Shown: positions 20,987 to 46,040 of the stretch, one piece after another
Position numbering within the stretch: position 1 is the stretch's first letter
Layout: every line of letters starts with the position of its first letter
Assembly: GCF_039365365.1 (NCBI RefSeq)
Contig: NZ_CP134985.1
Location: 1-64,000, forward strand
Direction: 5' to 3'
DNA length: 64,000 nucleotides
From: Buchnera aphidicola (Astegopteryx bambusae)
GTDB taxonomy: Bacteria; Pseudomonadota; Gammaproteobacteria; Enterobacterales; Enterobacteriaceae
The notes under the pieces: generated by a model
Database searches by the model: none
The model's input: the letters and a program-made list of their open reading frames with translations, nothing else
Told to the model about the DNA's origin: nothing
Position numbers and translations under genes: made by a program

Positions 20987-22131
20987 ATGTCAAAGAGTAA
21001 AAATAATAGTTTTGTTTCTTGGATATTAAGTAGTTTTAAAAAAAAAAAGTTTGTAAAAAATCAGATGATAAGTATAATAATTTAAAAAATAATAATAAAA
21101 TAAATAATGATAAAAGAAAAAATTTTTATGATAAAAACCATAAGAATTATAAAAAATTTTCATCTATAGATAAGTTACATGAAAAAAAAAATAAACTACA
21201 TTTAGATAAAAATAAAAGTATTTTTAACATATTTAAAGAAAAATTATATAATACTAAAAAAAAAATTAGTTCAAAAATAAAAGAAATATTTTTTAAAGAT
21301 AATGTAAAAATTAATAAAAAATTTTTGAAAAAGTTAGAAGAAAATTTATTATTATGTGATGTCGGGTTTAATACTTCTAAAAAAATAATTTCTAATTTAA
21401 ATAAAGAAATTTGTAAAAAAAATATTTTGGATGAAAAGATTGTTTTAGATATGTTAAAAACTCAATTATTGAAAATATTAAAAGTTTCTTATAACAATAA
21501 TTTAAAGATTAAAAAAAAATATCCTTTTTTAATTTTAGTAGTAGGAGTTAATGGTGTTGGAAAAACAACGACTGTTGGAAAATTAGCATGGAAATATAAA
21601 AATCAAGGAAAATCTGTTATGATAGCTGCAGGAGATACTTTTAGGGCGGCTGCAATAGAACAATTAAAAATAATTTCTAAAAAAATATCTGTACCTTTAG
21701 TGTCTCAACATTATAAAGCTGATGCAGCATCTGTTATTTTTGATGCTATACAATCCGCTAAGAACAAACATATAGAAGTGTTAATAGCAGATACTTCTGG
21801 TAGATTACATAATAATAAAAATTTTATATCTGAACTTAAAAAAATTGTTCGCGTTACGAAAAAAATAGATAAAAATTATCCTGATGAAATAATTTTAGTA
21901 GTAGATTCTTCTAGTGGTCATAATGTTATAAAACAAACTAAAGTATTTAATGATGCAATAAATGTTACAGGTACAATTTTTACTAAATTGGATGGAACAT
22001 CTAAAGGTGGTATGATTTTTAATGTTTCTAATAAATTTAACATTCCAATAAGATATATTTGTACTGGAGAAAATAAAGAAGATTTGCATAAATTTGATAG
22101 CAAAAATTTTGTTAAATCTATATTAGAGTAA
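20987..22131 (+). CDS. ftsY: Signal recognition particle receptor FtsY, frameshifted at a poly(A) tract
   Basis: SRP receptor GTPase for co-translational membrane targeting. The ATG at 20987 opens MSKSKNNSFVSWILSSFKKKK, resembling the E. coli FFSWL start, but that frame ends in TAA soon after an 11-base A run (21038-21048). One added A joins it to a second frame that runs through a lysine/asparagine-rich linker into the NG domain: KLEENLLLCDVGFNTSKK, P-loop GVNGVGKTT, AAGDTFRAAA, DTSGRL, TKLDGTSKGG. With the frame restored the protein has about 381 residues. If no slippage occurs, only the NG domain from about 21325 could be made, using a TTG start. The catalytic part is fully conserved, so I regard the gene as functional. 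Confidence 0.9.
21038..21048 (+). repeat. Poly(A) tract (A11) at the ftsY frameshift
   Basis: A run of eleven A in the coding strand marks the exact point where the ftsY N-terminal frame and the NG-domain frame part. Twelve (or nine) A would restore continuity. Confidence 0.9.
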
Positions 22132-22266
22132 TTTTTGTATTTATATACATAATATGTATTTTTATTTTTTATATATATAAGTTATATAATAATATAATAA
22201 TTTTTTTATATTAATATTTTATTTTTTATTTTTTTAAACTAAAATTTTTATAATTTAGGTAATTAA

Positions 22267-23127
22267 ATGTTAAAAATTATTGATGCTATTTCTTATGGTT
22301 CTTTAGGAAGTTTAAATTCTTATATAAACGTAGTTTTTTCTTTTCCTGTTATTTCAAGAAAAAAAGAAAAACATTTTTCAAATTTATTCTATCATAATAG
22401 TGATTTAGTTGCTGCTAAAAATTTAATATTATCTAATTTAAGATTTGTTGTACATATTTCAAGAAATTATTTAGGATATGGTTTGTTGCAATCTGATTTA
22501 ATCCAAGAAGGTAATATTGGATTAATGAAAGCAGTAAAAAAATTTAATCCAGAAATTGGTGTTAGACTAATATCTTTTGCTGTACATTGGATAAAATCAG
22601 AAATACATGAATATGTTTTAAAAAATTGGAGAATAGTTAAAATAGCTACTACAAAAGCTCAAAGAAAATTATTTTTTAATTTAAGAAAGAATAAAAAACG
22701 ACTCGGGTGGTTTAATAAATATGAAATAGAAACTGTTGCTAAAGAATTAGGAGTTACATCAAATGATGTAAAAGAAATGGAAAATAGAATGTTGTCTAAG
22801 GATTTAAATTTTAATCTTTCTTCATGTAAAGAAGATGAAAATCATACGAAATTTAGATTAGTATCATCTTATTTAAAAGATAAAAATTCAAATTTTGCAA
22901 ATATTTTGGAAAAAAATGATTTTTTTAAATATAATATAAGAAAACTTAATAATGCATTGTTGAGTTTAGACAAAAGAAGTAAAAATATAATAACTTCTAG
23001 ATGGTTATATAATAATAAAAAAAAAACTTTACAAAATTTAGCAGATTATTATGGCATTTCTGCTGAAAGAGTTAGACAAATTGAAAAAATTGCTATGAAA
23101 AAGATGAAACTAAAAATAAAAAGTTAA
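22267..23127 (+). CDS. rpoH: RNA polymerase sigma-32 (heat-shock sigma factor)
   Basis: Alternative sigma factor for heat-shock genes. It has 286 residues (E. coli 284). Region 2 contains [32 protein letters not shown] and RLISFAVHWIKSEI. The RpoH-specific box reads QRKLFFNLRKNKKRLGW, nearly identical to E. coli. Region 4.2 ends in YYGISAERVRQIEK. It follows ftsY directly; the cell-division genes ftsE and ftsX that lie between them in E. coli are missing. A matching promoter is seen before groES. Confidence 0.96.
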   Translation: MLKIIDAISYGSLGSLNSYINVVFSFPVISRKKEKHFSNLFYHNSDLVAAKNLILSNLRFVVHISRNYLGYGLLQSDLIQEGNIGLMKAVKKFNPEIGVRLISFAVHWIKSEIHEYVLKNWRIVKIATTKAQRKLFFNLRKNKKRLGWFNKYEIETVAKELGVTSNDVKEMENRMLSKDLNFNLSSCKEDENHTKFRLVSSYLKDKNSNFANILEKNDFFKYNIRKLNNALLSLDKRSKNIITSRWLYNNKKKTLQNLADYYGISAERVRQIEKIAMKKMKLKIKS

Positions 23128-23361
23128 TATTTTAATAATATTTTTATAAAATTTTATGTCATTTACTTTTTAATGTACAATATATACGTAGTTTATAATT
23201 AACATTGTATGTAATGTTTTTATAAAAATGATATAATAATATTATTATCTTTTAATATTTTTTATAAAGTTGTTTATATAGTTTATAACATGTCAAATAT
23301 TATAAATTTGATATTTAAATTTATATAAAATATATTTTGTTTGTATAAGAGAATTTATTTG

Positions 23362-25614
23362 ATGAACATTTTTAGTCATATATTGGGTTTTCCAAGAATA
23401 GGTCCTAATCGAGAGTTAAAGATTGCTCAAGAAAAATATTGGAATAATGAGATAAGTAAAGATGAATTATTTTCTGTAGGAAGAAAAATAAGAAAAAATA
23501 ATTTAAAAATTCAAAAATCTGCATGTTTAGATTTTTTATGTGTTGGAGATTTTTCTTGGTATGATCATGTATTAAATAATAGTATGATGGTTGGAAATAT
23601 ACCTACAAGACATAGAAATGTAAATAATAAAGTTGATATAGACACTTTATTTGGAATTGCTAGAGGCTATAATTCAAAAAATAATTTTGCATGTTCGTCT
23701 GAAATGACTAAGTGGTTCAATACAAATTATCATTATATAGTTCCAGAATTTAATAAAAATACATATTTTAAATTTTCTTGGAAACAAATATTAGAAGAAG
23801 TTGATGAAGCTATAAACTTAAATTTTAATAATATTAAACCAATTTTATTAGGACCAATTAGTTATTTATGGTTAGGAAAAAGAGATAATAATACAGTATT
23901 TGATAAGTTAGAATTATTAGATAAAATTTTACCTATATATAAAAATATTTTATCAGAGTTTAATAAAAGAAATATAAAATGGGTACAAATAGATGAACCA
24001 ATATTGGTTTTAGATATTTCAAAAAAATGGTTAGAATCTTTTATATATGCATATAATTATTTAAATAATAAAAATTTAAAAATATTGTTAACTACTTATT
24101 TTGGTAGTATATCACATAATATAGATATTATAAAAAATATTCCTATTGATGGTATACATATAGATTGTGTTAGTGAAAAAAATAATTTACAAAATTTAAT
24201 AAAAATGTTGTCTAAAGATATTTGTATATCTTTAGGTGTGATAAATGGCAGAAATATATGGAAAGCAGATTTACAAAAAATATATAATGAAATATGTTTC
24301 ATAAAAAATTTTAAAAGAAATTTTTTTATAAGTACTTCTTGTTCTCTAATGCATGTGCCAATTGATATATCTGTAGAAACAAAAATAAAAAAATCTGTTT
24401 TAAAAAAATTTTCTTTTGCAATACAAAAATGCAAAGAATTATATTTATTAAAAAAGTGTTTAAAAAATTTTAATAAAAATTTTTTTACAAAAAAAAATTT
24501 TTTTTATAATAGTGATGTATATAATAAAAGAAAAAATGTTTATATAAAAAAAAATGATTTGGTAAGAAAAAGTACTTATGAATTTAGAATAAAACAACAA
24601 ATTAAAAATTTAAAAATACCAATTCTACCTACTACTACTATAGGATCTTTTCCTCAGACAAAAGAGTTAAGAAACATTAGATTAAAATTTAAAAACAATA
24701 AAATAGATTTAAAAAAATATAATTTTGAAATAAAAAAATATATAAAAAATGTTATTCTCGAACAAGAAAATTTAGGATTAGATGTATTAGTACATGGTGA
24801 ACCTGAAAGAAATGATATGGTAGAATATTTTGGTCAACATTTAGAAGGATTTTTATTTACAGAATTTGGGTGGGTTCAAAGTTATGGCTCTAGATGTGTA
24901 AAACCTCCTATAATATTTGATAATGTTTCTAGAAAAAAACCGATAACTATAAAATGGACTAAATATGCTCAATCTAAGACTAAAAAATTAGTTAAAGGGA
25001 TGCTAACTGGTCCTGTAACTATTTTACTATGGTCATTTTGTAGGGAAGACTTATCAAAAGATATTATCTCTAAACAAATTGCTATTGCTATTAGAAAAGA
25101 AGTAAAAGATTTAGAAAATGCTGGAATAAAAATTATTCAAATTGATGAGCCAGCTTTTAGAGAAGGTTTACCATTAAGAAAAAAATATATAAAATCATAT
25201 TTGTCTTGGGCGATTGATGCTTTCAAATTAAGTTCATCTGTTGTAAATGATGAAACTCAAATACATACACATATGTGTTATTCTAATTTTAATAACATTA
25301 TAGATTCTATAATTAAGTTAGATGCTGATGTAATAACTATAGAATCTTCTAAATCTCATTTAAAATTATTAGATTGCTTTAAAAATATTAAATACCCTAA
25401 TGGGATAGGACCTGGTGTATATGATATACATACAACTAATATTCCAAGTGTTTCGAACATATACGATACTATAAAAAAATATATAAAGATATTTAATATA
25501 GAAAATTTGTGGATTAATCCAGATTGTGGGTTAAAAACTAGAAATTGGAAAGAAGTAAAAATATCTCTAAAAAATATGATATTAGCTACAAAAAATTTGA
25601 GAAATAAAATTTAA
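23362..25614 (+). CDS. metE: Cobalamin-independent methionine synthase MetE
   Basis: Transfers the methyl group of 5-methyltetrahydrofolate (triglutamate) to homocysteine, the final step of methionine synthesis. The ATG at 23362 gives MNIFSHILGFPRIGPNREL, matching the E. coli start, and 750 residues (E. coli 753); an in-frame TTG upstream at 23341 is less likely. Zinc ligands are present in HTHMCYSNFN and NPDCGLKTR, and the PTTTIGSFPQT and VLVHGEPERNDMVEYF blocks are intact. Together with metF at 38.6 kb it keeps the methyl branch of methionine synthesis. No MetJ or MetR box was recognised upstream. Confidence 0.97.
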   Translation: MNIFSHILGFPRIGPNRELKIAQEKYWNNEISKDELFSVGRKIRKNNLKIQKSACLDFLCVGDFSWYDHVLNNSMMVGNIPTRHRNVNNKVDIDTLFGIARGYNSKNNFACSSEMTKWFNTNYHYIVPEFNKNTYFKFSWKQILEEVDEAINLNFNNIKPILLGPISYLWLGKRDNNTVFDKLELLDKILPIYKNILSEFNKRNIKWVQIDEPILVLDISKKWLESFIYAYNYLNNKNLKILLTTYFGSISHNIDIIKNIPIDGIHIDCVSEKNNLQNLIKMLSKDICISLGVINGRNIWKADLQKIYNEICFIKNFKRNFFISTSCSLMHVPIDISVETKIKKSVLKKFSFAIQKCKELYLLKKCLKNFNKNFFTKKNFFYNSDVYNKRKNVYIKKNDLVRKSTYEFRIKQQIKNLKIPILPTTTIGSFPQTKELRNIRLKFKNNKIDLKKYNFEIKKYIKNVILEQENLGLDVLVHGEPERNDMVEYFGQHLEGFLFTEFGWVQSYGSRCVKPPIIFDNVSRKKPITIKWTKYAQSKTKKLVKGMLTGPVTILLWSFCREDLSKDIISKQIAIAIRKEVKDLENAGIKIIQIDEPAFREGLPLRKKYIKSYLSWAIDAFKLSSSVVNDETQIHTHMCYSNFNNIIDSIIKLDADVITIESSKSHLKLLDCFKNIKYPNGIGPGVYDIHTTNIPSVSNIYDTIKKYIKIFNIENLWINPDCGLKTRNWKEVKISLKNMILATKNLRNKI

Positions 25615-25668
25615 TTTTTTTGTTCATTTAAATATTTTATTTTTTATGTTTAAAAATACTTTAATTTT

Positions 25669-25713
25669 AACTATTAAAACTGAAAATTTTTGAATATTTC
25701 AGTTTTAATAGTT
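25669..25713. terminator. Bidirectional terminator between metE and hupA
   Basis: Perfect 17-bp arms, AACTATTAAAACTGAAA and TTTCAGTTTTAATAGTT, flank an 11-base loop, with T-rich sequence following on the + strand and A-rich preceding. It lies between convergent metE and hupA. Confidence 0.8.
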
Positions 25714-25865
25714 TTGTTTAAATATTGTAAAAAATTTATATTAATAAAATTAATATTACAATATTTTTATATAATATTTTATTTTTTTTATTTTAAAAAA
25801 TGTTTTTGTTTAAAAATTTTTCTATATATTTTATTTTTATAAATAATAATCTTTTATAAATAATA

Positions 25866-26141
25866 TTATTTTTTTACAGCGTTTTTTAATGCTTTTCCTG
25901 AAACAAAAGCTGGAACTCTAGTAGCTGCAATTTTTATTTCTTCTCCTGTTTGTGGATTTCTTCCTATTCTTTCTGATCTTTGATTAACTTTAAAAGTTCC
26001 AAATCCAACTATTTGCACTGTTTTTCCTTGTTTTAAAGATTGTGTAATTATTTGTAATGTAGTTTCTAATGTATTTTTTGTTTGAGATTTAGTTAGTGAA
26101 GTTTTTTCTGCAACTGCTTTTATTAATTCAGCTTTATTCAT
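25866..26141 (-). CDS. hupA: Histone-like DNA-binding protein HU
   Basis: Small nucleoid protein, 91 residues (E. coli HU-alpha 90). It begins [20 protein letters not shown]; the beta-arm signature reads [21 protein letters not shown], with the DNA-intercalating proline region intact. Only one HU gene is seen, so the protein is presumably a homodimer. It lies downstream of rpoC on the same strand but separated by 275 bp, so it may have its own promoter. Confidence 0.96.
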
Positions 26142-26253
26142 TAATTTTCCTTAATTATGTATTTTAAATTTTGTTAATAATAATTTTAAAAAAATAATGT
26201 AATCTTTTAAAATTTTTATTTTTTATTTTTTTTATTTTTATTAGAATTTTTAT

Positions 26254-26272
26254 TATAACTATTATAGTTATA
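26254..26272. other. Short perfect inverted repeat between rpoC and hupA
   Basis: TATAACTAT, one base, ATAGTTATA. It could be the weak end of the rpoBC transcript or a binding site near the hupA promoter. There is no clear U tract on the minus strand, so its function is unsure. Confidence 0.3.
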
Positions 26273-26416
26273 CAATTATAATAATATATAATTTTTTAAC
26301 ATTTATATTTTTAAATTATTTAATTCAGTTTTTTATTTTTTTTATAAAATTTAATATTTTATAAATTATTTATAAAAACGTTTAATAAAATATTTTTAAT
26401 TATGTTTATACAAAAT

Positions 26417-29400
26417 TTATAAATTAGAATTTAACATTTCTGATAAATTAGCTGAAGCTTCTTCTACAGTGGTAATATTTTTTTTTGATTGTTTAATTTG
26501 ATTTTTTCTTTTTTCTATTAGTTTAGCTCTTTTTTTATGATATTTATATCCTGTACCAGCAGGTATTAATCTTCCAACTATTACATTTTCTTTTAAACCT
26601 CTCAACTCATCTTTTTTGCCAGATATTGAAGATTCTGTTAAAACTCTAGTAGTTTCTTGAAATGATGCAGCAGAAATAAAAGATTCTGTTGCTAAAGATG
26701 CTTTTGTTATTCCTAATAAATTTCTATTAAATGTTGCTGTTTTTTTATTTTTTTTCTTTAAGATTTTATTTTCTAAAACTATTTTTGAATACTCTACTTG
26801 TTCTTCATGTAAAAATTTTGAATCTCCTGGATTTAATATAGTAGCTTTTCTTAACATTTGCCTAATTATAACTTCTATATGTTTATCATTTATTTTTACA
26901 CCTTGTAATTTATATACTTCTTGAACTTCATTTATTATATATTTAGTAACAGATATTACTCCTCTTAATCTTAATATGTCATGCGGAGATTCTGTTCCAT
27001 CTGAAATTATATCTCCTTTTTCTACTATTTCTCCCTCAAAAACATTAAGTTGCCTCCATTTAGGTATCATTTCTTCGTATAATTTTTTTTTATTTTTTGA
27101 AGTAATTATTAGTCTTCTTTTACCCTTTGTTTCTTTTCCAAAAGATATTTTTCCACTTATTTCTGCTAATATAGCTAACTCTTTTGATTTTCTTGCTTCA
27201 AATAAATCCGCGACTCTAGGTAATCCTCCAGTAATGTCTTTAGTTACACTAGATTCTTGAGGCACTTTTGCTATTACATCTCCAGAATATATTTTTTCAT
27301 TATTTTCAAATTGTATTATTGATTTACCAGGTAAAAAATATTTATAATTGTTTTTTGCATTATTTTCTTGTATGTCTTTTTTATTTTTATTTATAATTTT
27401 TATTGATGGTCTTAAATCTTTTCCTATAATCGTTCTTTCAGAAGTATCTAATACTTTTATATAAGATAATCCTGTTAATTCATCTGTTTGTTTAATTACA
27501 CTTTGACCTTCTATTATTTCTGAAAATTTTACATATCCATTTATTTCAGAAATTATCGGTATTGAATGAGGATCCCATTGTGCTACAATTTCTCCTGAAT
27601 TTACTTTTTTATTATTATATTTTTTTAATATAGCACCATATGGTATTTTGTGATTTTCTTTTATTCTTCCATATTTATCAGTTATTCTTAGCTCTACGTT
27701 TCTAGAAATAATTATTATATTACCATTTTTTTTTTTAACTGTTTTTGCGTTATGTAAATTTATTATTCCAGAACTTTTTATTTTTATACTAGACTCTGTT
27801 ACTAATCTAGAAGCAGCTCCTCCGATGTGAAAAGTTCTCATAGTAAGTTGAGTTCCTGGTTCACCTATAGATTGTGCAGCTATAACTCCAATTGCTTCTC
27901 CTTTATTTACTAGTTTACCTCTTGATAAATCCCTTCCATAACATTGAGCACATACACCAAATTCAGTTTCACACTTTACTACTGTTCTAACTTTTATTTT
28001 ATTGATAGAATATTTTTCTAATTTTTTGCATAAATTTTCATTTAATAAAGTATTTTTTTTTATTAAAATTTTGTTAGTTTTAGGTGTTTTTATATTTTCT
28101 GAAATTACTCTTCCTAAAACTTTATCTCTTAAATATTCTTTTATTTCTCCATTTTCTATTGTTATAAAAATAGACATTCCATCTTTAGTTTTGCAATCAT
28201 TTTCTGTAATTACTAAATCTTGCGCAACATCTACTAATCTTCTAGTTAAATATCCAGAATTCGCTGTTTTTAATGCAGTGTCAGCTAATCCTTTTCTAGC
28301 CCCATGAGTGGATATAAAATATTGTAGTACGTTAAGACCTTCTCTAAAATTTGCTATTATCGGAGTTTCTATTATAGATCCATCTGGTTTAGCCATTAGT
28401 CCTCTCATACCTGCTAATTGTCTTATTTGAGCAGCGGATCCTCTTGCTCCTGAGTCAGCCATAATAAAAATACTGTTAAATGATATTTGTTTTTTTAATT
28501 TTCCATTTTTATTTAGTATTTTTTCTATTGATAAATTTTTCATCATAGCTTTAGAAACTTTTTCATTTGCATTTGACCATATGTCTATAACTTTGTTATA
28601 TCTTTCTCCTGCGGTTACTAATCCTGAATGAAATTGTTCTTGTATTTCTGAAACTTCTGTTTCAGCATCAGATATAATGTCATATTTTTCTTTTGGTATC
28701 ACCATATCATCTATTCCTACTGATGATCCGGATTTTGCAGCATATTTAAATCCTGTATACATTATTTGATCTGCTAATATTACTGTTTTTTTTGTTCCTA
28801 AGGTTCTATAACATATATTTAATATTTCAGAAATTGATTTTTTTTCTAATGTTTTGTTTATTAATGAAAAAGATAACCCTTTTGGTATTATTTTCCATAA
28901 AATAGATCTTCCTATTGTAGTATTTATTATGCTAACATTTTTTTTAAAATTTTTGTTTTCTGTTTTTTTATATTCAAAAATTCTTACTTTAACTTTTGCA
29001 TGTAATGACGCTTTGTCAGAATAATATAGTCTTTCTGCTTCATCAGATCCTGTTAAAATAGATCCTTCTCCTTTAGAATTTATTTTTTCTCTTGTCATAT
29101 AATATAATCCTAAAACAACATCTTGAGAAGGAACTATTATTGGTTCACCGTTTGCTGGTGATAAAACATTTTTTGTAGACATCATTAATGATGATGCTTC
29201 TTTTTGTGCTTGTATCGTAAGAGGAATGTGTACAGCCATTTGATCTCCATCAAAATCAGCATTATATGCAGCACATACTAATGGATGTAATTGAATAGCT
29301 TTTCCTTCTATCAAGATTGGTTGAAATGCTTGTATTCCTAATCTGTGTAATGTTGGCGCTCTGTTTAATAAAATAGGATGTTTTTTTATTACTTTATCTA

Positions 29401-30634
29401 ATATGTCCCAAACTATTGGATCTTCTCTTTCTACCATTTTTTTTGCAGATTTTATTGTATTAGCTAATCCTTTAGATTCTAATTTTCCATATATAAATGG
29501 TTTAAAAAGTTCTAAAGCCATTTTTTTTGGAAGACCGCATTGATTAAGTTTTAAATATGGACCAACTGTTATTACAGATCTTCCTGAATAGTCAACACGT
29601 TTTCCTAATAAATTTTGTCTAAATCTTCCTTGCTTTCCTTTTATCATGTCTGCTAATGATTTTAAAGGTCTTTTATTAGATCCTATGATTGCTTTTCCTC
29701 TTCTTCCATTATCTAATAAAGCATCTACTGCTTCTTGTAACATTCTTTTTTCATTTCTTACTATTATTTCTGGAGCAGATAATTCTAATAATCTTTTTAA
29801 TCTGTTGTTTCTATTTATTACTCTTCTATATAAATCGTTTAAATCAGATGTTGCAAATCTTCCTCCATCTAATGGTACTAATGGTCTTAAATCTGGGGGT
29901 AATACTGGTAGTACATTAAAAATCATCCATTCTGGTTTATTATCAGATTGCAAAAATGAGTCTATTAATTTTATTCTTTTAGAAATTTTTTTTCTTTTAT
30001 TATCAGAATTAATGTTTTTAAATTTTTTTCGTAATTTTAAAGATATCTTCTTCAAATTTATATTTTTTAATAATGTTTGAATTGCTTCAGCTCCCATGTT
30101 TGCGACAAAATCATTTCCAAACTCTTTTATTGAATTTATATATTGTTCTTCAGACAATATTTGTTTTTTTTTTAAATTCGTATTTCCAGAATTTATTACT
30201 ATATATGATTCAAAATATAATACTTTTTCTATGTCTTTTAATGGTATATTAAGTAATAATCCTATTCTTGATGGTAAAGATTTTAAGAACCAAATATGTG
30301 CTATTGGAGATGCTAATTCTATATGCCCCATTCTATCTCTTCTAACTTTACTTTTTGTAACTTCTACCCCACATTTTTCGCATATTACTCCTCTGTGTTT
30401 TAATCTTTTATATTTTCCGCATAAACATTCATAATCTTTTACAGGTCCAAAAATTTTTGCACAAAATAATCCTTCTCTTTCTGGTTTGAATGTTCTATAG
30501 TTTATAGTTTCAGGTTTTTTTACTTCTCCAAATGACCATGATCTTACAACATCAGGAGAAGATAATGAAATTTTTATAGAATCAAATTCTATAGTTTTTG
30601 TTTTTCCTTTTAAAAATTTTAGTAAATTTTTCAA
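26417..30634 (-). CDS. rpoC: RNA polymerase beta' subunit
   Basis: Catalytic large subunit of RNA polymerase, 1405 residues (E. coli 1407). The N-terminal zinc site [20 protein letters not shown], the active-site [12 protein letters not shown] with three aspartates, the bridge/trigger region ([38 protein letters not shown]) and the second zinc cysteines ([15 protein letters not shown]) are all intact. Its size and motifs are almost unchanged despite base drift. It follows rpoB by 63 bp. Confidence 0.99.
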
Positions 30635-30697
30635 AATATGTTCTCTATTAGTATAAACACATTAATTAATTGTTTTTAAAAAAATTTAGTGAATTTT

Positions 30698-34787: not shown

Positions 34788-34813
34788 CTGGTGATTATAA
34801 AAAAAATCACCAG
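34788..34813 (-). terminator. Putative rplL-rpoB attenuator hairpin
   Basis: Nine-base arms CTGGTGATT and AATCACCAG around an eight-base loop, followed on the minus strand by TATTTTAAAAAAATTTT. Its position, 30 bp after rplL and about 70 bp before rpoB, matches the partial terminator known between these genes in E. coli. Confidence 0.65.
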
Positions 34814-34842
34814 ATAATATTTTTAAAATTTTTTAAATATTT

Positions 34843-35211: not shown

Positions 35212-35227
35212 ATTTATTCCTAATTTA

Positions 35228-35716: not shown

Positions 35717-35885
35717 ATTTATATTGTTTCCTACATTTTTTTTAACTTATTTTAAAATATTTTTTTATTATTTTTTTTATAATATAATTTTTTATATTTT
35801 TTTTTATAAAAATATAATATTTTTATTTTTTTAGGACAATAATTGATATTAGATTTTTGTTTGATAAATTTTTAAAAAATTGTTT

Positions 35886-36575: not shown

Positions 36576-36579
36576 TTTC

Positions 36580-37008
36580 TTAATCTTCTATTGTTAGACC
36601 TATAGATTTAGCAGTTCCTATTATGGAAAGAGAAATTTTATTTATATTTGTACTGTTCATGTCTTTCATTTTTATTTTTGATATTTCTTTTATTTGTTTT
36701 TTACTAATTTTTCCTATTTTTTCTATTTTGTTTTTTCCTGATCCTTTTTTTATTTTTGCTAATTTTTTTAATAATATTGATGCTGGTGGAGTTTTTGTTA
36801 TAAATGTAAATGTTTTATCAGAAAAAACAGATATTATTACTGGTATTGGAATACCTTTTTCTAATTTTTTTGTTTTTTCATTAAAATTTTTACAAAATTC
36901 CATTATATTTATTCCTTTTTGTCCTAATGCTGGACCTACTGGTGGGCTAGGATTTGCCATACCTGATGGAATTTGCAATTTTATATAACTTATTATTTTT
37001 TTTGACAT
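36580..37008 (-). CDS. rplK: 50S ribosomal protein L11
   Basis: Component of the GTPase-associated centre, 142 residues as in E. coli. The N-terminal [24 protein letters not shown] is nearly identical to E. coli, as is [15 protein letters not shown]. The C-terminal rRNA-binding domain is lysine-rich but alignable. Sixteen bp after the nusG frame ends. Confidence 0.98.
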
Positions 37009-37024
37009 ATATGATTTCTTTTTT

Positions 37025-37563
37025 TTATGTTTTTTCTATTTGTGAAAAGTTTAATTCTACTGGAGTAGATCTACCAAATATAGATACTGAAACTGTTAAT
37101 CTATTCTTATCATAATCTATATTTTCTACTGTCCCATTAAAATCTGAGAAAGGACCGTTTTTTATTCTAATTATTTCTCCTGGTTCAAATAATATTTTAG
37201 GTCTTGGTTTATTTTCTATTTTTTTTAATTTTTTAATTATATTTTTTATATCTTTTTTTTTAATTGGTATTGGACTTTCTGGGGATCCTCCTATGAATCC
37301 TAATACTTTTGGTACATTTCTAATAATGTGCCAACTTTTTTCATTCATAATCATTTTTATTAATATATATCCTGGAAAAAATTTATTTTCACTCTTTTTT
37401 TTTTACCATTTTTTATTTCTATAACTTCTTCTGTTGGTATCATTATTTTTTCAAACATGTCTTGAACATTATTTATTTTGATATGTTTTTTTATTAATTC
37501 TGCGACTTTGTTTTCTAATCCAGAAAAAGATTGAATTACATACCATTCTTTTTTTTGTTTCAT
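37025..37563 (-). CDS. nusG: Transcription antitermination factor NusG, frameshifted at a poly(A) tract
   Basis: Essential RNA polymerase-associated factor linking transcription to Rho and ribosomes. The gene is in two frames: 37563 down to 37360 encodes the NGN part ([24 protein letters not shown]), and 37354 down to 37025 the rest, including the KOW domain ([19 protein letters not shown]). They meet at a ten-base A run in the coding strand (37395-37404). Adding one A gives [11 protein letters not shown] at the join, which matches E. coli RKSERKFFPGY, and a full 179-residue protein. Without it the upstream frame ends in an unrelated tail, INFFQDIY. Both halves are otherwise conserved. Confidence 0.93.
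37395..37404 (-). repeat. Poly(A) tract (A10, coding strand) at the nusG frameshift
   Basis: Ten T on the + strand, read as A10 in nusG. The E. coli-like sequence changes frame exactly here, and eleven A would restore it. Confidence 0.92.
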
Positions 37564-37564
37564 T

Positions 37565-37927
37565 TTATAACCTTATAGATATAATATTTGATACAATATA
37601 AAATATTAAATTATCTATTATCCATAAAATACTTGATGTGATTATAGTTATTAATATCACTACAATAGATATATATAATATTTCTTTTTTTTTAGGATAA
37701 TTTATTTTTTTTGTTTCTATTATAGTTTCTTGTATAAATTTCAAAAAATTTTTAATTTTTTTTGTTTTACTTATTAAAATTAAAATTAAAAAAATAGAAA
37801 AAGTTAAAAATATTATTTTGCTAATAAAATTTTTTTTTATATAAAAATATAAAAAGAATAAAATTTCTAAAAAAAAAAATGATAATATATAAAATATTCT
37901 AATTTTTTTGTTATTTTTTTTTTTCAT
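37565..37927 (-). CDS. secE: Preprotein translocase subunit SecE
   Basis: Small essential membrane subunit of SecYEG. It has 120 residues (E. coli 127), with two poorly conserved N-terminal membrane helices and the conserved C-terminal part: the amphipathic segment FIQETIIETKKINYPKKKEIL, then a final membrane helix. Its stop is one base before the nusG start, keeping the secE-nusG pair. It is preceded by four tRNA genes on the same strand; tufB, which lies between them in E. coli, is gone. Confidence 0.93.
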   Translation of the reverse strand: MKKKNNKKIRIFYILSFFFLEILFFLYFYIKKNFISKIIFLTFSIFLILILISKTKKIKNFLKFIQETIIETKKINYPKKKEILYISIVVILITIITSSILWIIDNLIFYIVSNIISIRL

Positions 37928-38039
37928 AATATTTCAATTTTTTTACATTCAAAAAAATTAATAAAATTTATTGATATTTTTAAATTTAAAAGTTTTTTTA
38001 TATAAATAAAAAAAATATTTTTTTTAAATTTTTTTTATT

Positions 38040-38111
38040 TGCTGATACCCAGATTTGAACTGGGATCTCATCCTTACCAAGGATGTGCTCTTCCTACTAA
38101 GCTATACCAGC
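38040..38111 (-). tRNA. tRNA-Thr (GGT)
   Basis: 72 nt. Cloverleaf beginning GCTGGTATAGCTTAG, anticodon loop TTGGTAA, acceptor paired with ATCAGC and discriminator A. CCA is not encoded. Last of the four-tRNA group; corresponds to E. coli thrT. Confidence 0.95.
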
Positions 38112-38124
38112 ATTTAATATTTTT

Positions 38125-38195
38125 AGCAGGCAGCGGGAATTGAACCCGCATTATTAACTTGGAAGGCTAAAGTAATACCATTATACTATGCCTGC
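38125..38195 (-). tRNA. tRNA-Gly (TCC)
   Basis: 71 nt. It starts GCAGGCATAGTATAATGG, has anticodon loop CTTCCAA and T arm GGGTTCAATTCCC, and ends in GCCTGCT. CCA is not encoded. Corresponds to E. coli glyT. Confidence 0.95.
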
Positions 38196-38219
38196 TTTTT
38201 TATAAAATAAATTATATTT

Positions 38220-38301
38220 TGGTGGGAGAAGGATTCGAACCTTCGAAGTCTAAGACGGCAGATTTACAGTCTGCTCCCTTTAACCGCTCGGGAATCCCAC
38301 C
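38220..38301 (-). tRNA. tRNA-Tyr (GTA)
   Basis: 82 nt with a long variable arm. It starts GGTGGGATTCCCGAGCGG, has anticodon GTA in CTGTAAA and T arm AGGTTCGAATCCT. CCA is not encoded. Corresponds to E. coli tyrU. Confidence 0.95.
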
Positions 38302-38337
38302 TATATATTAAAATAAATAAAAATTTTTAATTTAATT

Positions 38338-38410
38338 TGCCGGCTACCGGAATTGAACTGGTGACCTACTGATTACAAATCAGTTGCTCTACCTGCTGAG
38401 CTAAGCCGGC
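38338..38410 (-). tRNA. tRNA-Thr (TGT)
   Basis: 73 nt. It starts GCCGGCTTAGCTCAGCAGG, has anticodon loop TTTGTAA and ends in GCCGGCA. CCA is not encoded. First of the four-tRNA group preceding secE; corresponds to E. coli thrU. Confidence 0.96.
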
Positions 38411-38627
38411 CAAATATATTTAAAAAAATATATTTATAATAAACATATTTTATATATCATATTTTTTTTTCAATTTAATGTAAAGAAATAATTATATTAT
38501 TTTGTTTATGTTATTAATTTAAATTTTTTATTTTTATTATTTTTAAATATAAAATTTTATATTAGAAATATTTTTAATATTTTTTATGTTATTATTTTTT
38601 ATTAATATGTTTAAAGGATTTTATAAT

Positions 38628-39536
38628 ATGATAAAAATTTTTAATAAAAATTTAGAAAATATATATTATAATTATATGAATTTTAGAAATAAAATAAATA
38701 TTTCATTTGAAATGTTTCCTTATTCAAATTCAGTTTCTAAAAATAAGTTTTATAAAAGTTTTTTTAAATTATCTAAATTAGATCCAAGATTTTTTTCTAT
38801 AACATGTAATCAAAATTCTGGAGGAAATTATAATACATTAAATTTAATAAAAAATATGAAAAATTATAATAAAAAGTATATTGTTCCTCATTTTACATGC
38901 ATAGAACATTGTAAAAATGAAATCAAAGATATTGCAAACAATTATTGGAAAATTGGTGTTAGGAAAATATTAGCTTTAAGAGGAGATAATTTTTCTAATA
39001 ATTCAAAAAATGTTTTTTTTAATGCATCTGATTTAGTAAATCAATTAAAAAAAATAAGAAATTTTGAAATATTAGTTGCTGCTTATCCTGAAAAACATCC
39101 TGAATCTAAAAATGAAAAAGAGGATTTATATAATTTAAAAAAAAAAATTGATAATGGAGCTAATAAAGCTATTACTCAATTTTTTTTTAAAACAGAAAGT
39201 TTTTTAAATTTTAGAGATAAATGTTTTAAAATAGGAATTACAAAAGAAATAGTTCCTGGAATATTACCAATATATAATTTATCACAATTAAAAAAATTTA
39301 CTAATATTACAAATGTTTCAGTTCCTGATTGGATTTATAATGTTTTTAATAATATAGATCATAGTTCTAATTATCATAAAATAATTAGTAGTATTATATT
39401 AATAAATGTTGTAAATAAGTTATTTTTAGAAGGAGTTAGATCTTTTCATTTTTATACTTTAAATAGATCAGATATAATTTTTTCTATCAGTTATTTGTTG
39501 AATATAAAAAAAATTGATTTTAGTCGTTTTGTATAA
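38628..39536 (+). CDS. metF: 5,10-methylenetetrahydrofolate reductase MetF
   Basis: FAD enzyme that makes 5-methyltetrahydrofolate, the methyl donor used by MetE. The frame opens at 38586, but the ATG at 38628 follows an AAAGGA ribosome site (38613-38618) and gives about 302 residues, close to E. coli (296). NISFEMFPY carries the catalytic glutamate; HFTCIEH, RKILALRGD, AAYPEKHPES and AITQFFF follow; the end reads EGVRSFHFYTLNRSD. In E. coli metF adjoins argECBH; here argG follows after only 124 bp. Confidence 0.95.
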   Translation: MIKIFNKNLENIYYNYMNFRNKINISFEMFPYSNSVSKNKFYKSFFKLSKLDPRFFSITCNQNSGGNYNTLNLIKNMKNYNKKYIVPHFTCIEHCKNEIKDIANNYWKIGVRKILALRGDNFSNNSKNVFFNASDLVNQLKKIRNFEILVAAYPEKHPESKNEKEDLYNLKKKIDNGANKAITQFFFKTESFLNFRDKCFKIGITKEIVPGILPIYNLSQLKKFTNITNVSVPDWIYNVFNNIDHSSNYHKIISSIILINVVNKLFLEGVRSFHFYTLNRSDIIFSISYLLNIKKIDFSRFV

Positions 39537-39660
39537 TATTAAAATTATATTTTATTTTAATTATAAAATTATATTTTTATAAATATTTTAAAAAGTAAAA
39601 AATTAATTTTATAATTTTTTTGTTTACATCAGAATTTTATATATTTAGAGATATTATTAT

Positions 39661-40878
39661 ATGAAAAATAAAAATATTAAAAAAGTAGTTCTTGCATATT
39701 CTGGAGGTTTAGATACTTCTGCAATTATACCGTGGATTAAAGAAAATTATAATGCTGAAGTAATAGCTTTTGTTGCTAACATGGGTCAATCTAAAGAGGA
39801 ACTTAAAAATATAGAAAAAAAAGCTATAGTATCTGGTGCTAGTGAATGTTTTATAAAAGATCTAAGAAAAGAATTTATAAAATATTATTTATATCCATTA
39901 TTACAATCTTATGCTATTTATGAAAATAATTATTTTTTAGGAACAGCTATAGCTAGACCTATTATTGCAAAGAAGCAAGTTGAACTAGCTATTAAAATTA
40001 ATGCTGATGCATTGTGTCATGGTTCTACTGGAAAAGGTAATGATCAAATTAGATTTGAAAGTGCATATACATCTTTAGCTCCAAATTTAAAGATAATATC
40101 TCCTTGGAGAGAATGGAAATTTACATCTAGAATTGATTTGTTGAAATATTTAAAAAAAAATAAAATAAAAACTAATTATAGTAAAGACAAAATTTATAGT
40201 AAAGATGAAAATATATTTCATACATCTACTGAAGGAGGATTATTAGAAAATGTTTGGAATTCTTCAGAAAAAAAAAATATTTGGTCTTTAACTAAAGATT
40301 CATTAGATGCTGTAGAAAAACCTAAATATTTAAAAGTAAAAATGTTAAATGGATATGTAGAAAGTATAAATAATAAAAAAATTTCATTGTTAAAAAGTTT
40401 AAAAAAATTTAATAAATTAGGTTCTTTGCACGGTATAGGAAGAGTAGACTTTGTAGAAAACAGATTAATAGGAATAAAATCTAGAGGATGTTATGAAACT
40501 CCAGGTGGAACAATTATATCAAAGATAATACAATCTTTAGATCAGTTAATATTAGACAGAGATTGTTTAAGATGGAAAAATGTAATAGGTTCAGAATTTT
40601 CTTATTTAGTATATGATGGAAAATGGTTTACTCCATTTAGAAAAGTTTTACAAAAAAATATAAAATTTTTTTCTAAACTAATTTCTGGTACTGTGTTTAT
40701 AAGATTATATAAAGGAAATGTAACAGTTTTAAAGAAAAAATCTAAAAATTCTTTATATTCAAAAGAATTTTCTACTTTCAATAATAGTAATTTTTCTTAT
40801 AAACATAATTATGCAGATGGATTTATTAAATTATTTACTATGTCATCTTTAATTAGATCTATAAAAAAGTTGAATTAA
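39661..40878 (+). CDS. argG: Argininosuccinate synthase
   Basis: Condenses citrulline and aspartate with ATP, the penultimate step of arginine synthesis. It has 405 residues. The PP-loop AYSGGLDTSAI lies at the N-terminus, followed by FLGTAIARPIIAKKQVE, CHGSTGKGNDQIRFE and LHGIGRVDFVENRLIGIKSR. The length matches the short ArgG type rather than the longer E. coli K-12 form. It probably forms a unit with argH 94 bp downstream. argC, argB and argE, expected just upstream in Buchnera relatives, are missing. Confidence 0.95.
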   Translation: MKNKNIKKVVLAYSGGLDTSAIIPWIKENYNAEVIAFVANMGQSKEELKNIEKKAIVSGASECFIKDLRKEFIKYYLYPLLQSYAIYENNYFLGTAIARPIIAKKQVELAIKINADALCHGSTGKGNDQIRFESAYTSLAPNLKIISPWREWKFTSRIDLLKYLKKNKIKTNYSKDKIYSKDENIFHTSTEGGLLENVWNSSEKKNIWSLTKDSLDAVEKPKYLKVKMLNGYVESINNKKISLLKSLKKFNKLGSLHGIGRVDFVENRLIGIKSRGCYETPGGTIISKIIQSLDQLILDRDCLRWKNVIGSEFSYLVYDGKWFTPFRKVLQKNIKFFSKLISGTVFIRLYKGNVTVLKKKSKNSLYSKEFSTFNNSNFSYKHNYADGFIKLFTMSSLIRSIKKLN

Positions 40879-40971
40879 TTAAATAATAATATTGTTTGTT
40901 TATTTTTTTTTGTTTTTTTTAAAATTATTAATTTTATTAATATATTAAAAAATTTTTATATAGGAACAATT

Positions 40972-42342
40972 ATGTTTTTATGGGGCGGAAGATTTAAAGA
41001 AAAATCTGATAATACTTTCTTAAATTTTAACAGATCTTTACATTTTGATTATATTTTAGTTGAACAAGATATATTATCTTTAATTTCTTGGTCAAAATTT
41101 TTATTGTCTTCTAAAGTAATTAATAAATTTGAACAAAAATCTATAGAAAAATGTTTAAATGAAATAAAAGAAAATGTTAAAAATAATTTGAATATTATTT
41201 TGAAAAGTAATTGTGAAGATATTCATACTTGGTTAGAAAGTGAAATAATACGAAAAATAGGTAATATCGGAAAAAAAATACGTACCGGAAGAAGTAGAAA
41301 TGAACAAATAACTACTAGTTTAAAAATGTGGTGTAAACATGTTATAAATAAATTAATAAAATATATAAAAAATTTGCAGATTAAAATATTAACTTTGTCA
41401 GAAAAATGTATTAATATTGTAATGCCAGGATACACACATCTTCAGATAGCTCAACCTATACTATTTTCTCATTGGTGTTTGTCCTATTATGAAATGTTGC
41501 ATAGAGACAAAATTAGATTAAAACATATATTACAAGAAATAGATTTTTGTCCTTTAGGATCAGGTGCTATTTCTGGTGTTTCATATAAAATAAATAGAAA
41601 AAGATTAGCTAAAGAAATTCATTTTTCAGATATTACAAAAAATAGTATAGATAGTGTATCTGATAGAGATTATGTAATAGAAATTTTATCTGCCTCTTCT
41701 ATAGGAATGATGCATCTTTCTAGATTGTCTGAAGATTTAATTTTTTTTAATTCTTCTGAAACAAATTTTATAGAACTTTCTGATTGTATAACTTCTGGTT
41801 CTTCATTAATGCCGCAGAAAAAAAATCCTGATGTTTTAGAATTAATAAGAGGAAAATGTGGAAGGGTTTATGGATCTTTAATTAGTATATTAGTTACGTT
41901 AAAAGGCATACCTATGTCTTATAATAAGGATATGCAAGAAGATAAAGAATGTTTATTTGATGCTATAAATACTTGGAGTAATTGTATAAATATGATGGCT
42001 TTAGTTTTCAAAAACATTTCAGTTAATTATAAAAATTGTTTAAGGTCTGTAGAAAATAGTTTTGCTAATTCTACAGATCTATTAGATTATTTGGTATCTA
42101 AAGGAGTTAGTTTTAAGGAATCTCATGATATTGTAGGAAAAATTGTATTATATGCAATTAATAAAAAAAAATATTTAAATCAAATTAAAATTTCTGTATT
42201 TAAATCTTATAGTGATTTTTTTGAAAATGATTTGTATGATTATATTTCTATAAAAAATGTTTTAAATAGAAAAAATTCTTTTGGTGGAACTTCTAAAAAA
42301 CAAGTGTTACATAGTATTAAAACAGCTAAAAAAAAAATATAA
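40972..42342 (+). CDS. argH: Argininosuccinate lyase
   Basis: Cleaves argininosuccinate to arginine and fumarate, the last step of the pathway. It has 456 residues (E. coli 457). It starts LWGGRFKEKSDN; RTGRSRNEQITTSLKMW, PGYTHLQIAQP and the fumarase-superfamily signature GSSLMPQKKNPD are intact. The AGGAACAATT before the ATG supplies the ribosome site. It is followed by a good terminator facing convergent rpoD. Confidence 0.97.
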   Translation: MFLWGGRFKEKSDNTFLNFNRSLHFDYILVEQDILSLISWSKFLLSSKVINKFEQKSIEKCLNEIKENVKNNLNIILKSNCEDIHTWLESEIIRKIGNIGKKIRTGRSRNEQITTSLKMWCKHVINKLIKYIKNLQIKILTLSEKCINIVMPGYTHLQIAQPILFSHWCLSYYEMLHRDKIRLKHILQEIDFCPLGSGAISGVSYKINRKRLAKEIHFSDITKNSIDSVSDRDYVIEILSASSIGMMHLSRLSEDLIFFNSSETNFIELSDCITSGSSLMPQKKNPDVLELIRGKCGRVYGSLISILVTLKGIPMSYNKDMQEDKECLFDAINTWSNCINMMALVFKNISVNYKNCLRSVENSFANSTDLLDYLVSKGVSFKESHDIVGKIVLYAINKKKYLNQIKISVFKSYSDFFENDLYDYISIKNVLNRKNSFGGTSKKQVLHSIKTAKKKI

Positions 42343-42368
42343 AATTTATTTTGTACTTTTTTTTAATA

Positions 42369-42405
42369 AAGCTTCCTATTAATAAAAATTATAATTAGGA
42401 AGCTT
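42369..42405. terminator. Bidirectional terminator between argH and rpoD
   Basis: The ten-base arms AAGCTTCCTA and TAGGAAGCTT flank a 17-base A/T loop, followed on the + strand by a T-rich CATTTTATT. It lies between convergent argH and rpoD. Confidence 0.75.
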
Positions 42406-42425
42406 CATTTTATTATAAAAACGTT

Positions 42426-44222
42426 TTAATTATCTAAAAAACTTTTCAATATTTCTGATCTACTAGGATGTCTAAGTTTTCTCAAAGCTTTAGCTTCTAT
42501 TTGTCTTATTCGTTCTCTAGTAACATCAAATTGTTTTCCTACTTCTTCTAATGTATGATCGGTGTTCATATCTATTCCAAATCTCATTCTTAGAACTTTT
42601 GCTTCTCTAGTGGTTAATCCAGATAAAACTAAGTTTGTTGCAGTTTTTAAACTTTCAGAAGTTGCAGATTCTAAAGGAAGTTCTAAATTTGTATCTTCTA
42701 TAAAATCTCCTAAATGAGATTCATCATCATCTCCTATTGGTGTTTCCATAGATATTGGTTCTTTTGCTATTTTTAATACTTTTCTAATTTTGTATTCTGG
42801 TATTAACATTTTTTCTGATAGTTCTTCTGGAGTGGGCTCTCTTCCTATTTCTTGTAATATCTGTCTTGATATTCTATTTAATTTGTTTATTGTTTCTATC
42901 ATGTGTACTGGTATTCTTATTGTTCTTGCTTGATCTGCTATAGATCTAGTAATAGCTTGTCTTATCCACCATGTTGCATATGTAGAGAATTTGTAACCTC
43001 TTCTATATTCAAATTTATCTACAGCTTTCATCAATCCTATGTTTCCTTCTTGTATTAAGTCTAAAAATTGTAATCCTCTATTAGTATATTTTTTTGCTAT
43101 TGATATTACTAATCTAAGATTAGCTTCTACCATTTCTTGTTTTGCTTCTTTTGCTTTTTTTTCTCCTAAATATATTTTTTTATTTATTTTTTTTACTTGT
43201 TTTACAGATAATCCAGTGTCTTTTTCTACTTGAATTAATTTTTTAAAAATTGTGTTTATTTCTTTTTTAAATTTTTTTAATTTTTTTATACATTTTTTAT
43301 TTATTTTTATATTATTTTTTATATATTTGAAACTTATTTTTTTATTTTTTAATAATTTTTTTAATATTTTTTTTGGTATTTTACATTTTTTTTTACATAT
43401 GTTTATTATTATTTTTTCATGTATTAAAATTCTTTTTGTTATATTTTTTATATTGTTTATTAGATTTTTAAATTGTTTTTGAGTTAATTTAAATTTATTA
43501 AATATTTCTGATAATTTTTTTATATTTTTGTTATTTTTTTTTTTTATTGTTTTTTTATATTGTTTTTTTAATTGTTTGAATTTTTTTTTTGCTGTGTTTG
43601 TATCAATAATATTACTTTCATATTCTTCTTCTATGTTTTTGTCATATTTATTTTCATTTTTTTTTGTGAATTCTGAATTTATTATATTTATTGAGAATGG
43701 AATTTTTTTATTTTTATTTTCTATAAATCCTGTTATTATTTCTGAAAGTTTTATTTTATTTGATTTTACTTTTTTATATTGTTTTAAAAAATGTTTAATA
43801 GATTTTGGGTGTTCAGCTATTGTAGATTGGATTTGATTTATTCCATTTTCTATTTTTTTTGCTATTTTTATTTCCCCCTTTCTATCTAGTAATTCTATTG
43901 TACCCATTTCTCTCATATACATTCTTACTGGATCTGTTGTTTTTCCAAAATCTGGATCAGAATTTACATTTTCTTGTGTGTTTTCTTCTACAATAATATT
44001 TTCTTTATTATTTTTTTTGTTTAAAATTTTATTTTTTATATCTGATTTTTTTTTTAGGATTATTATTCCCATTTTTTTTATTATTTTTATAATATTTTTT
44101 ATTTTTTTAGAATTTATAAAATATGATGATAAATAATTTTTTATTTCTTCGTAAGTTAAATGTCCTTTTTTTTTTGCATAGGAAATTAGAATATTTAATT
44201 TGTATTTTTTATTTTTATACAT
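42426..44222 (-). CDS. rpoD: RNA polymerase primary sigma factor (sigma-70)
   Basis: Housekeeping sigma factor, 598 residues (E. coli 613). Region 1.2 reads [11 protein letters not shown]; region 2 has [27 protein letters not shown] and [13 protein letters not shown]; region 3 has [10 protein letters not shown]; region 4.2 has [30 protein letters not shown]. The N-terminal 1.1 region and the non-conserved region between 1.2 and 2 are drifted to lysine/isoleucine/asparagine. Last gene of the rpsU-dnaG-rpoD macromolecular synthesis operon, whose order is kept. Confidence 0.98.
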
Positions 44223-44310
44223 AATATTTTTTCCAAAATAATAAAAATAATTATTAATTAATATAGGAAAAATTATTTAATATTTTATAAATATTTTAAA
44301 CTTTTTATTT

Positions 44311-46040
44311 TTATTTATATTTTTTAAATATTAATTTATTAATTTTCCATAATTTTTTTTTTTCTTCTTTATTTAATCCAACTGTTTTTTCCTTATTTAT
44401 TAAAAAATTTTGTTTGTTTTCTAAATTTTGTTTATAAATAATTTTTATTGAATCTAAAAAAACATTTTTTATTTTTTTTTTTAATATCATATGTTGCCAA
44501 CAAGACATTTTTTTTATTATATAATATTTTTTAGAATTTCGATATAATTCTAATATTTGACATGTTTTTATTTTTTTATATTTTTTACAAATTTTTTTAA
44601 TTTCTAAAAATAAATTTATTCCTAATATATTTTTATTACTCAAATTTTCTATTTTTTTAGGTATTATTTTAAATAAATTTGGGTTTTGTACTAATAATCC
44701 TATTAATATTTTTATAATATTGTTTTTTATATTTTTTTTTTTTTTTTTTTTTTATTTTGTAATTTTATGTTTTTAACTTTTGATATTCCTAATTTTTTTA
44801 TTAAATTTTTTTTTAAAAAAAATTTAATTATTTTTCCTGGTATTTTTTCTATTATATTTTTTACTTGTATACTAAATTTTGTTTTTTCTTCTGGATTTGA
44901 TAATTTGTTATTTTTTAGAAGTTTTGTAAATAAAAATTTTGACATTGGAATTGCATTTTTTATTCTTAACAAAAATTTTTTATGTCCTTCTTTTTTGATA
45001 ATACTATCCGGATCTTCTCCTTTTGGTAAAAATATAAATTTTAATATTTTATTATCTTCTATATATGCAAGAGATATTTTTAACGTTTTCCATGATGCTT
45101 TTTTTCCAGCATCATCTCCATCATAACAACATATTATAGTATTTGTTATGTTAAATAATTTTTTTATAATTTTTTCATTTATGGAAGTTCCTAATATAGA
45201 TATTGCATATTTTATTTTATTTTGAAACAGTGTTATTACATCGAAATATCCTTCTACTATTAGTAATTTTTTTATTGGTTTTCTATTGTTTTTATATGTT
45301 TCAAATAGTCCATATAAATTTTCTTTTTTTTTGAAAATTATTGTTTCTGGTGAATTTAGATATTTCGGAACTTTATTAAATATTGTTCTTCCTCCAAATC
45401 CATTTATTTCACCTTTTAAATTTTTTATTGGAAACATTATTCTTTCTACAAATCTATTGTATATTGTATTATTTGTGTTTTTATATAAAATTCCTGATTT
45501 TATTAAATTTTTTATAAATTTTTTATTTTTTTTTATATAATAATTTTTAATAATTTTTAAATTGTTTGAATATCCTATTGAAAATGTTTCAATACTTTTT
45601 TTGTTTATTTTTCTTGTTTTCAGATATTTTGTTACATTTTTATTTTTTTTTTTATATATATTGTTTTTGTAAATTAATGATATTTTTTTTAGTGTATTGT
45701 ATAGTTTTTTTTTTTTATAATATTTTTTATTTATAATTTTGCTATTTGGTATTTTCATTCCATTTAAAGAAGATAATTCTTTAATACTTTCTAAAAAATT
45801 CATTTTTTCATAATTTATTAAAAAGTCTATTGCATTTCCATGAACATGACATCCAAAACAATAATAAAATTGTTTTTCAAAACTTATTGAAAATGATGGT
45901 GTTTTTTCATTATGAAATGGACATATTGAATAATAATTTTTTCCTCTTTTTATTGTTTTTATTTTTGAACTTATAATATCGACTATATTAGTATTTGAGA
46001 GTAGTTCATTTATGAAACTTTTTGGTATTTTATATAACAT
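44311..46040 (-). CDS. dnaG: DNA primase DnaG, split by a frameshift at a 22-base poly(A) tract
   Basis: Makes RNA primers at the replication fork. The first frame (46040 to 44727) has the zinc site CPFHNEKTPSF with FYYCFGCHVHG, the polymerase core and TOPRIM motifs (LIVEGYFDVI, DGDDAGKK). It ends in a lysine run coded by 22 consecutive A and a stop. One extra A continues it into IGLLVQNPNLFKIIP and the C-terminal DnaB-binding domain (ILELYR, GLNKEEKKKLWKINK), matching the E. coli sequence to its end. With the frame restored it has about 576 residues (E. coli 581). Without slippage, a primase lacking its helicase-binding domain would be made. Both parts look under selection. Confidence 0.92.
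44732..44753 (-). repeat. Poly(A) tract (A22, coding strand) inside dnaG
   Basis: Twenty-two uninterrupted T on the + strand, the longest homopolymer I saw in the window, at the exact boundary between the two dnaG frames. Its length is also the least certain to sequence correctly. Confidence 0.9.

Follow-up and report, generated by a model that had tools for sequence, protein, structure and literature searches.

Three Buchnera genes held one base out of frame at poly(A) tracts across related genomes

In the endosymbionts Buchnera and Blochmannia, poly(A) frameshifts are said to be rescued by transcription slippage (Tamas et al. 2008), and selection reportedly preserves ancient frameshifts (Wernegreen et al. 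2010). Here we describe three genes, ftsY, nusG and dnaG, each of which changes frame at a run of adenines within positions 1–64000 (hereafter, the window) of the 411,372-bp contig of the Buchnera of the aphid Astegopteryx bambusae (CP134985; genome total 420,629 bp). All three genes are essential in E. coli. As in the systems of Tamas et al., a single frame change lies in an A run of an otherwise intact gene, and correction would take place at the run. The corrected transcripts reported for such systems are those of cell-wall and histidine genes (PMC5009743), whereas the genes considered here at the level of sequence encode DNA primase, the receptor of the signal recognition particle (SRP) and NusG. 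Blochmannia vafer has 8 frameshifted genes, including dnaG and dnaX (PMC3017870); together with the ancient frameshifts of Wernegreen et al., it resembles the present case in that frameshifts are conserved between species and dnaG is affected independently; unlike the Blochmannia case, the present one comprises six aphid-symbiont genomes, three genes, length changes modulo 3 and one return to frame. Slippage of the polymerase at a homopolymer also yields two protein lengths from Thermus thermophilus dnaX, but the DNA of that gene is in frame for the long product (PMC5009743), whereas here only a slip would give the long product. Ribosomal frameshifting in E. coli dnaX and chloroplast atpB likewise takes place at A runs, in E. 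coli dnaX by −1.

We found no published report of a frameshifted nusG in Buchnera; the main text of the paper on the Buchnera of Ceratovacuna japonica (PMC9672956) mentions neither nusG, dnaG nor a frameshift, and PMC11193766 neither nusG nor a frameshift. We regard the finding as real and biologically meaningful. Frameshifts of this kind are known from other endosymbionts, and the present ones add an unusually deep example; what is new is that the breaks are old and kept, to a depth of six species, that the tract is conserved, and that there has apparently been one natural return to frame. We assign a probability of about 70% to the reading that three working genes are locked in the −1 phase at poly(A) and have their frame restored during expression, most likely through slippage of RNA polymerase, with selection keeping both the tract and its phase.

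The sequence-only reading, which started this analysis, had placed runs of A11, A10 and A22 in ftsY, nusG and dnaG, and we located all of them, with the frame change inside each (Table 1). Each run is also long enough for an endosymbiont frameshift rescued by slippage, for which some 9 A or T would be looked for. Three-frame translations put the conserved halves of each gene in different frames, with the downstream half at −1 in all three, which bears out the common direction that had been claimed. The expected Pfam domains are divided over the halves, as for the NusG domain, of which the two halves match positions 1–48 and 43–92 of 93, the second followed by KOW; conserved motifs in both halves had also been claimed, and only the 21-residue ftsY N-terminus lacks a Pfam match.

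Our comparison covers six genomes of the genus, those of the Buchnera of A. bambusae (G000), C. japonica (G060), Pseudoregma panicola (G061), C. keduensis (G062), Chaitoregma tattakana (G063) and Ceratoglyphina bambusae (G052), of which we infer the names of the relatives; we take the six species to belong to the aphid tribe Cerataphidini. All six genomes have nusG and ftsY in the −1 phase at the break and five have dnaG in it, a total of 17 of the 18 gene-by-genome cases, and this conservation rules out chance phase. In every one of the 17 shifted cases, the stretch that is open in both frames holds an A run of at least 10. This stretch barely exceeds the run in ftsY of Ceratoglyphina bambusae and in dnaG of A. 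bambusae and C. tattakana, while a second run lies inside the overlap window in dnaG of Ceratoglyphina bambusae, P. panicola and C. keduensis, and in ftsY of three genomes. The exception is dnaG of C. japonica, in which the tract reads A8-G-A9 and the gene is in frame. On a tree from six proteins, P. panicola groups with C. keduensis and these with C. japonica (support 100% each), while the grouping of A. bambusae with those three has 53%; as C. japonica is nested within the tree, its in-frame dnaG is, by parsimony, a derived return.

Beyond the genus, a 60-genome family sample includes 58 other genomes, and 57 of them have nusG open over 181–198 residues; G028, which has low completeness, does not. 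In a family sample of 149 genomes, dnaG was matched in 148, and among the matches listed, frames shorter than 500 residues belong to the two sampled members of the genus and to G049, from another Buchnera-like genus. The dnaG of G049 has a −1 change at A12 in the Toprim region (about 193837–193848 of its contig 2), independent of the break in the window. Stops inside the match occur in dnaG of G134 (two TAA) and G120 (one TGA). Five outgroup genomes have nusG in frame at the site, where the A run is no longer than A8; the dnaG linker is in frame in four, with A6 to A8 in three and A11 in G010, from another Buchnera genus. Together, these comparisons indicate that the breaks predate the divergence of the six sampled species and have been retained since. 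Because related species keep a break of the same kind, correction of the frame must be routine in the cell; while a whole symbiont genus diverged, genes of the core machinery (DNA primase, SRP receptor, NusG) could thus persist in an out-of-frame state, with selection acting on tract and phase.

Span lengths agree with a retained phase. The nusG span measures 163 nt in all six genomes, with no insertion or deletion, and the dnaG linker span measures 86, 95, 101, 98 and 101 nt in the five shifted species, always 2 modulo 3, against 102 nt in C. japonica. From the start of ftsY to a conserved anchor there are 260, 209, 167, 230, 191 and 227 nt in the six genomes, again all 2 modulo 3, although part of this pattern shows only that the downstream linker is translated. 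The ftsY tract is A11 in A. bambusae, A13 in C. tattakana, Ceratoglyphina bambusae and C. keduensis, and A16 in P. panicola and C. japonica. At least two changes, each of three, are required to fit the A13/A16 pattern to the tree.

The sequence-only reading had found the presence of three such breaks in one window striking. They form no special cluster, because long A runs are common in this genome, also in intact open reading frames (ORFs); it is their conservation that is special. Within the window, intact ORFs with long runs include gyrB (T15 and T13 on the + strand) and dnaN (T14 and T13). In 164 kb of the A. bambusae genome, 118 alignment sites have A runs of at least 10 when 60-nt flanks are counted and 111 lie wholly inside gene bounds; the gene is out of frame at four of the latter (ftsY, nusG, dnaG and tilS). 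Setting tilS aside, we compared the three shifted sites with the 107 others, which were taken to be in frame because each lies within an ORF or an open piece. Runs of at least 10 persist in all five relatives at 4 of the 107 other sites, against three of three shifted sites by the window rule, or two of three on a strict count, since the A10 scored for dnaG of C. japonica is a neighbouring run. The chance that both nusG and ftsY retain their tracts is about 0.003.

On both sides of the tract the genes are otherwise intact and, to judge from substitution patterns, under purifying selection. In the downstream frame, differences at the first, second and third codon positions are 0.068, 0.035 and 0.278 for nusG, 0.188, 0.109 and 0.237 for dnaG, and 0.159, 0.075 and 0.332 for the NG part of ftsY, all resembling five intact controls; the short ftsY N-terminus (15 codons; 0.182, 0.204, 0.244) and the ftsY linker (0.431, 0.318, 0.364) show no clear codon-position pattern. 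Over five of the 15 genome pairs, the downstream part of nusG has dN of 0.011–0.068 against dS of 0.21–0.64, and dN is likewise well below dS in dnaG and ftsY.

Table 1. Positions of the three interrupted genes in the window
Feature	Positions	Strand	Basis
ftsY N-terminal piece (MSKSKNNSFVSWILSSFKKK...), upstream frame through the tract	20987..21048	+	Three-frame translation; N-terminus recognisable in 6/6 genomes
A11 tract, site of the ftsY frame change	21038..21048	+	TAA bounding the downstream frame at the tract's first bases in 6/6 genomes
ftsY downstream piece, −1 frame: linker, SRP54_N, SRP54 GTPase	21049..22131	+	Pfam, SRP54 GTPase E 5.3e-72; codon-position pattern
nusG upstream piece, first half of NusG domain	37405..37563	-	Translation, Pfam
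A10 tract in nusG	37395..37404	-	A10, A12 or A13 across six genomes; net length of span unchanged
nusG downstream piece, −1 frame: second half of NusG domain and KOW	37025..37394	-	Pfam; codon-position test
dnaG upstream piece: zinc ribbon, catalytic core, Toprim, DnaB_bind	44754..46040	-	Translation, Pfam
A22 tract in dnaG linker	44732..44753	-	Overlap window equals tract, TAA at start, TATAA after
dnaG downstream piece, −1 frame: C-terminal DnaB-binding domain	44311..44731	-	Pfam DnaG_DnaB_bind E 2.1e-18

Further breaks were sought in 120 gene alignments over 164 kb of all six genomes and over another 60 kb in five of them. A first scan (164–167 kb) gave 37 candidates, of which 13 were retained (nusG 6, dnaG 5, tilS 1, rsmI 1) and 24 dropped by eye as antisense ORFs, tRNA spacers, short spurious ORFs or, in one case, an alternative start. 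A second scan of 60 kb, which left out C. keduensis, gave 24 places; one (tadA) was retained, and of the 23 dropped, nearly all lie in one stretch at about 187–195 kb that was assumed to be rRNA and one is a spurious dnaQ-like start. Such scans have little power for breaks close to gene ends (the one in ftsY escaped the scan and was found through the conservation comparison), and a check of starts and stops flagged 33 of the 120 genes, including four known ones; six of the others were inspected and the remaining 23 left out. Further breaks may therefore exist at gene ends.

Three young breaks, each present in one genome, were found in this way, and all are −1. The tRNA-Ile lysidine synthetase gene tilS of A. 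bambusae changes frame at A13 (86953–86965) and gives a single unbroken match in the five relatives; a tadA-like (adenosine-deaminase-like) gene of C. tattakana does so at T11 (195557–195567), alone among five genomes; and an rsmI-like methyltransferase gene of Ceratoglyphina bambusae at A11 (69365–69375), alone among six. The "one rule" seen by the sequence-only reading thus extends to all six frameshifted loci found in the genus, which share the −1 phase (two-sided binomial, 0.03), although taken alone this direction test is weak. Outside the genus it has a counterexample, the ftsY N-terminus of G010, which changes frame at T10 (near 16.4 kb) in the opposite direction.

How would a frame be restored at these tracts? 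In the mechanism that we favour, RNA polymerase would slip backwards on the A run and add one A to a fraction of the transcripts; ribosomes would read these lengthened transcripts straight through into full-length FtsY, NusG and DnaG; unslipped transcripts would give truncated products alongside the full-length ones; and selection would retain the tract and its phase. We infer the joined protein, the slipping of the polymerase instead of the ribosome, and the yield. All six loci being in one phase is what would be expected if insertions do the rescuing. Homopolymers account for 151 of 157 insertions among Buchnera transcription errors, against 16 of 57 deletions (70 deletions were counted in all), and the insertions rise with run length up to 11 (PMC5574713). 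In frameshifted genes of other endosymbionts, 12–50% of the transcripts are corrected (PMC5009743).

Several points weigh against this account, in addition to the reversed direction of the G010 ftsY. The mean deletion rate per base in Buchnera transcription, 1.75e-5, is not below the insertion rate of 1.30e-5 (PMC5574713); poly(T) makes E. coli RNA polymerase slip more than poly(A) does, and an in vitro study cited in the same paper saw mostly deletions on A11 (PMC6260861). Long A runs are also tolerated in frame, as in dnaN (A14 in four of six genomes) and the A11 dnaG linker of G010, so a simple advantage of the −1 phase in long tracts does not account for the breaks. Furthermore, a deletion bias of replication would equally yield a common direction.

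The most serious alternative, which we consider unlikely, is that the frame is restored in translation, by ribosomes that slide or shift by −1 on iterated AAA codons. Such a shift would yield an identical product; in an E. coli cell-free system sliding is robust at A11 and longer, with little at A9 or A10 (PMC4363877), the frameshift at the oligo-A of chloroplast atpB is ascribed to ribosomal recoding (PMC8254509), and the window encodes one tRNA-Lys(UUU). The slippery heptamers A AAA AAG or A AAA AAA are present at the tracts, as they trivially are in any A7 run. However, downstream structures are described as part of ribosomal frameshift sites (PMC8254509), and none stands out in the seven 80-nt stretches that were folded (z −0.81 to 1.21) out of the 18 gene-by-genome cases, namely directly after the tract in the three A. 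bambusae genes and from some bases further on in nusG of four relatives. No Shine-Dalgarno-like stimulator is obvious by eye upstream of the nusG tract, where no dedicated search was made. A heptamer needs only seven bases, and in the A. bambusae genome runs of A7–A9 outnumber those of at least 10 by about 7:1 (758 against 109), yet every break found in the genus lies at a run of at least 10. This absence of short-run breaks leaves untouched any sliding that needs A11, and it is confounded, because longer runs mutate more. The interrupted dnaG tract of C. japonica retains slippery heptamers, yet the gene is in frame. Finally, the tadA break lies at T11, where the A-AAA-AAG site of the ribosome is absent and the polymerase explanation still holds. 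None of these four points in favour of the polymerase (no breaks at shorter runs, no downstream structure, the interrupted dnaG tract, tadA) is decisive.

The earlier interpretation fares unevenly. Conservation in six genomes, retention of phase and selection acting on the downstream frame lend strong support to a tolerated and corrected state over random decay, whereas slippage by RNA polymerase is the best, though putative, reading of these patterns. A depth of six species, the identity of the genes, the conserved tracts and the natural return of dnaG in C. japonica make this an unusually good case for testing, in which the choices between polymerase and ribosome, and between a tolerated and a programmed state, can be addressed directly. 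We also expect that automatic annotation may score such genes as broken, in which case they may escape comparisons of gene content between small genomes.

For nusG, a further idea follows from the function of its product. The RNA polymerase whose slip would be needed for NusG synthesis is itself a target of NusG. A shortage of NusG could therefore increase slippage at the nusG tract and bring the NusG level back, which would make the circuit a transcriptional analogue of the frameshift loop of release factor 2. If this were true, the fixed 163-nt nusG span in six species would be kept for that reason; we regard such a feedback as quite doubtful.

It is very unlikely that these are split genes, with halves made separately and the downstream half produced by internal initiation or reinitiation. 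The downstream frame of nusG has an in-frame ATG (37354), 5 bases past the upstream stop, and nusG of C. tattakana has one just before the tract. However, the stretch from the tract to that next ATG, which holds part of the NusG domain, evolves as coding sequence of the downstream frame: of its nine variable columns, eight are third positions of that frame and the ninth is a first-position change that retains leucine, leaving two amino-acid changes (E/D and K/N); a tenth variable column sits within the tract of five genomes. Ahead of this stretch, the downstream frame of five of the six genomes has no ATG, GTG or TTG to open it, so that the stretch is accessible from such a codon only via a frame change. 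Both the third-position bias and this lack of a start codon argue for one joined NusG protein. In ftsY and dnaG of A. bambusae, the first ATG, GTG or TTG of the downstream frame (21325 and 44643) falls inside the domain matches.

Still less probable is ordinary decay, in which the three genes would be pseudogenes in the making. Small genomes do lose genes, and a gene of A. bambusae that we take to be that of threonyl-tRNA synthetase (thrS; 94241–96244) has orthologues in C. japonica and C. keduensis with starts eroded by several stops. Those stops lie in more than one frame, whereas in ftsY, nusG and dnaG we found neither several inactivating changes nor relaxed selection: leaving the tract change aside, each flank has an open frame and shows purifying selection in the six species, and the retention of phase also speaks against decay.

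Homopolymer miscalls in assembly, although undercalled runs would share one direction, can hardly explain the breaks, because Illumina genomes from one group and the C. japonica genome of another, assembled from Nanopore reads with 1,819x Illumina polishing (PMC9672956), share the nusG and ftsY phase, and dnaG of C. japonica is in frame.

Three other observations concern the A. bambusae Buchnera genome. A 7,058-bp contig has 99.8% identity to the leuABCD plasmid NZ_CP134989, whose host is the same aphid species. In the window, an ORF of 583 residues at 51914–53665, presumably ligA-like, corresponds to an open frame of 587–597 residues in the five relatives and of 688 in an outgroup Buchnera. 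A run of 96 A (234880–234975), perhaps an assembly artefact, begins one base past the stop of a gene that we assume to be zwf-like.

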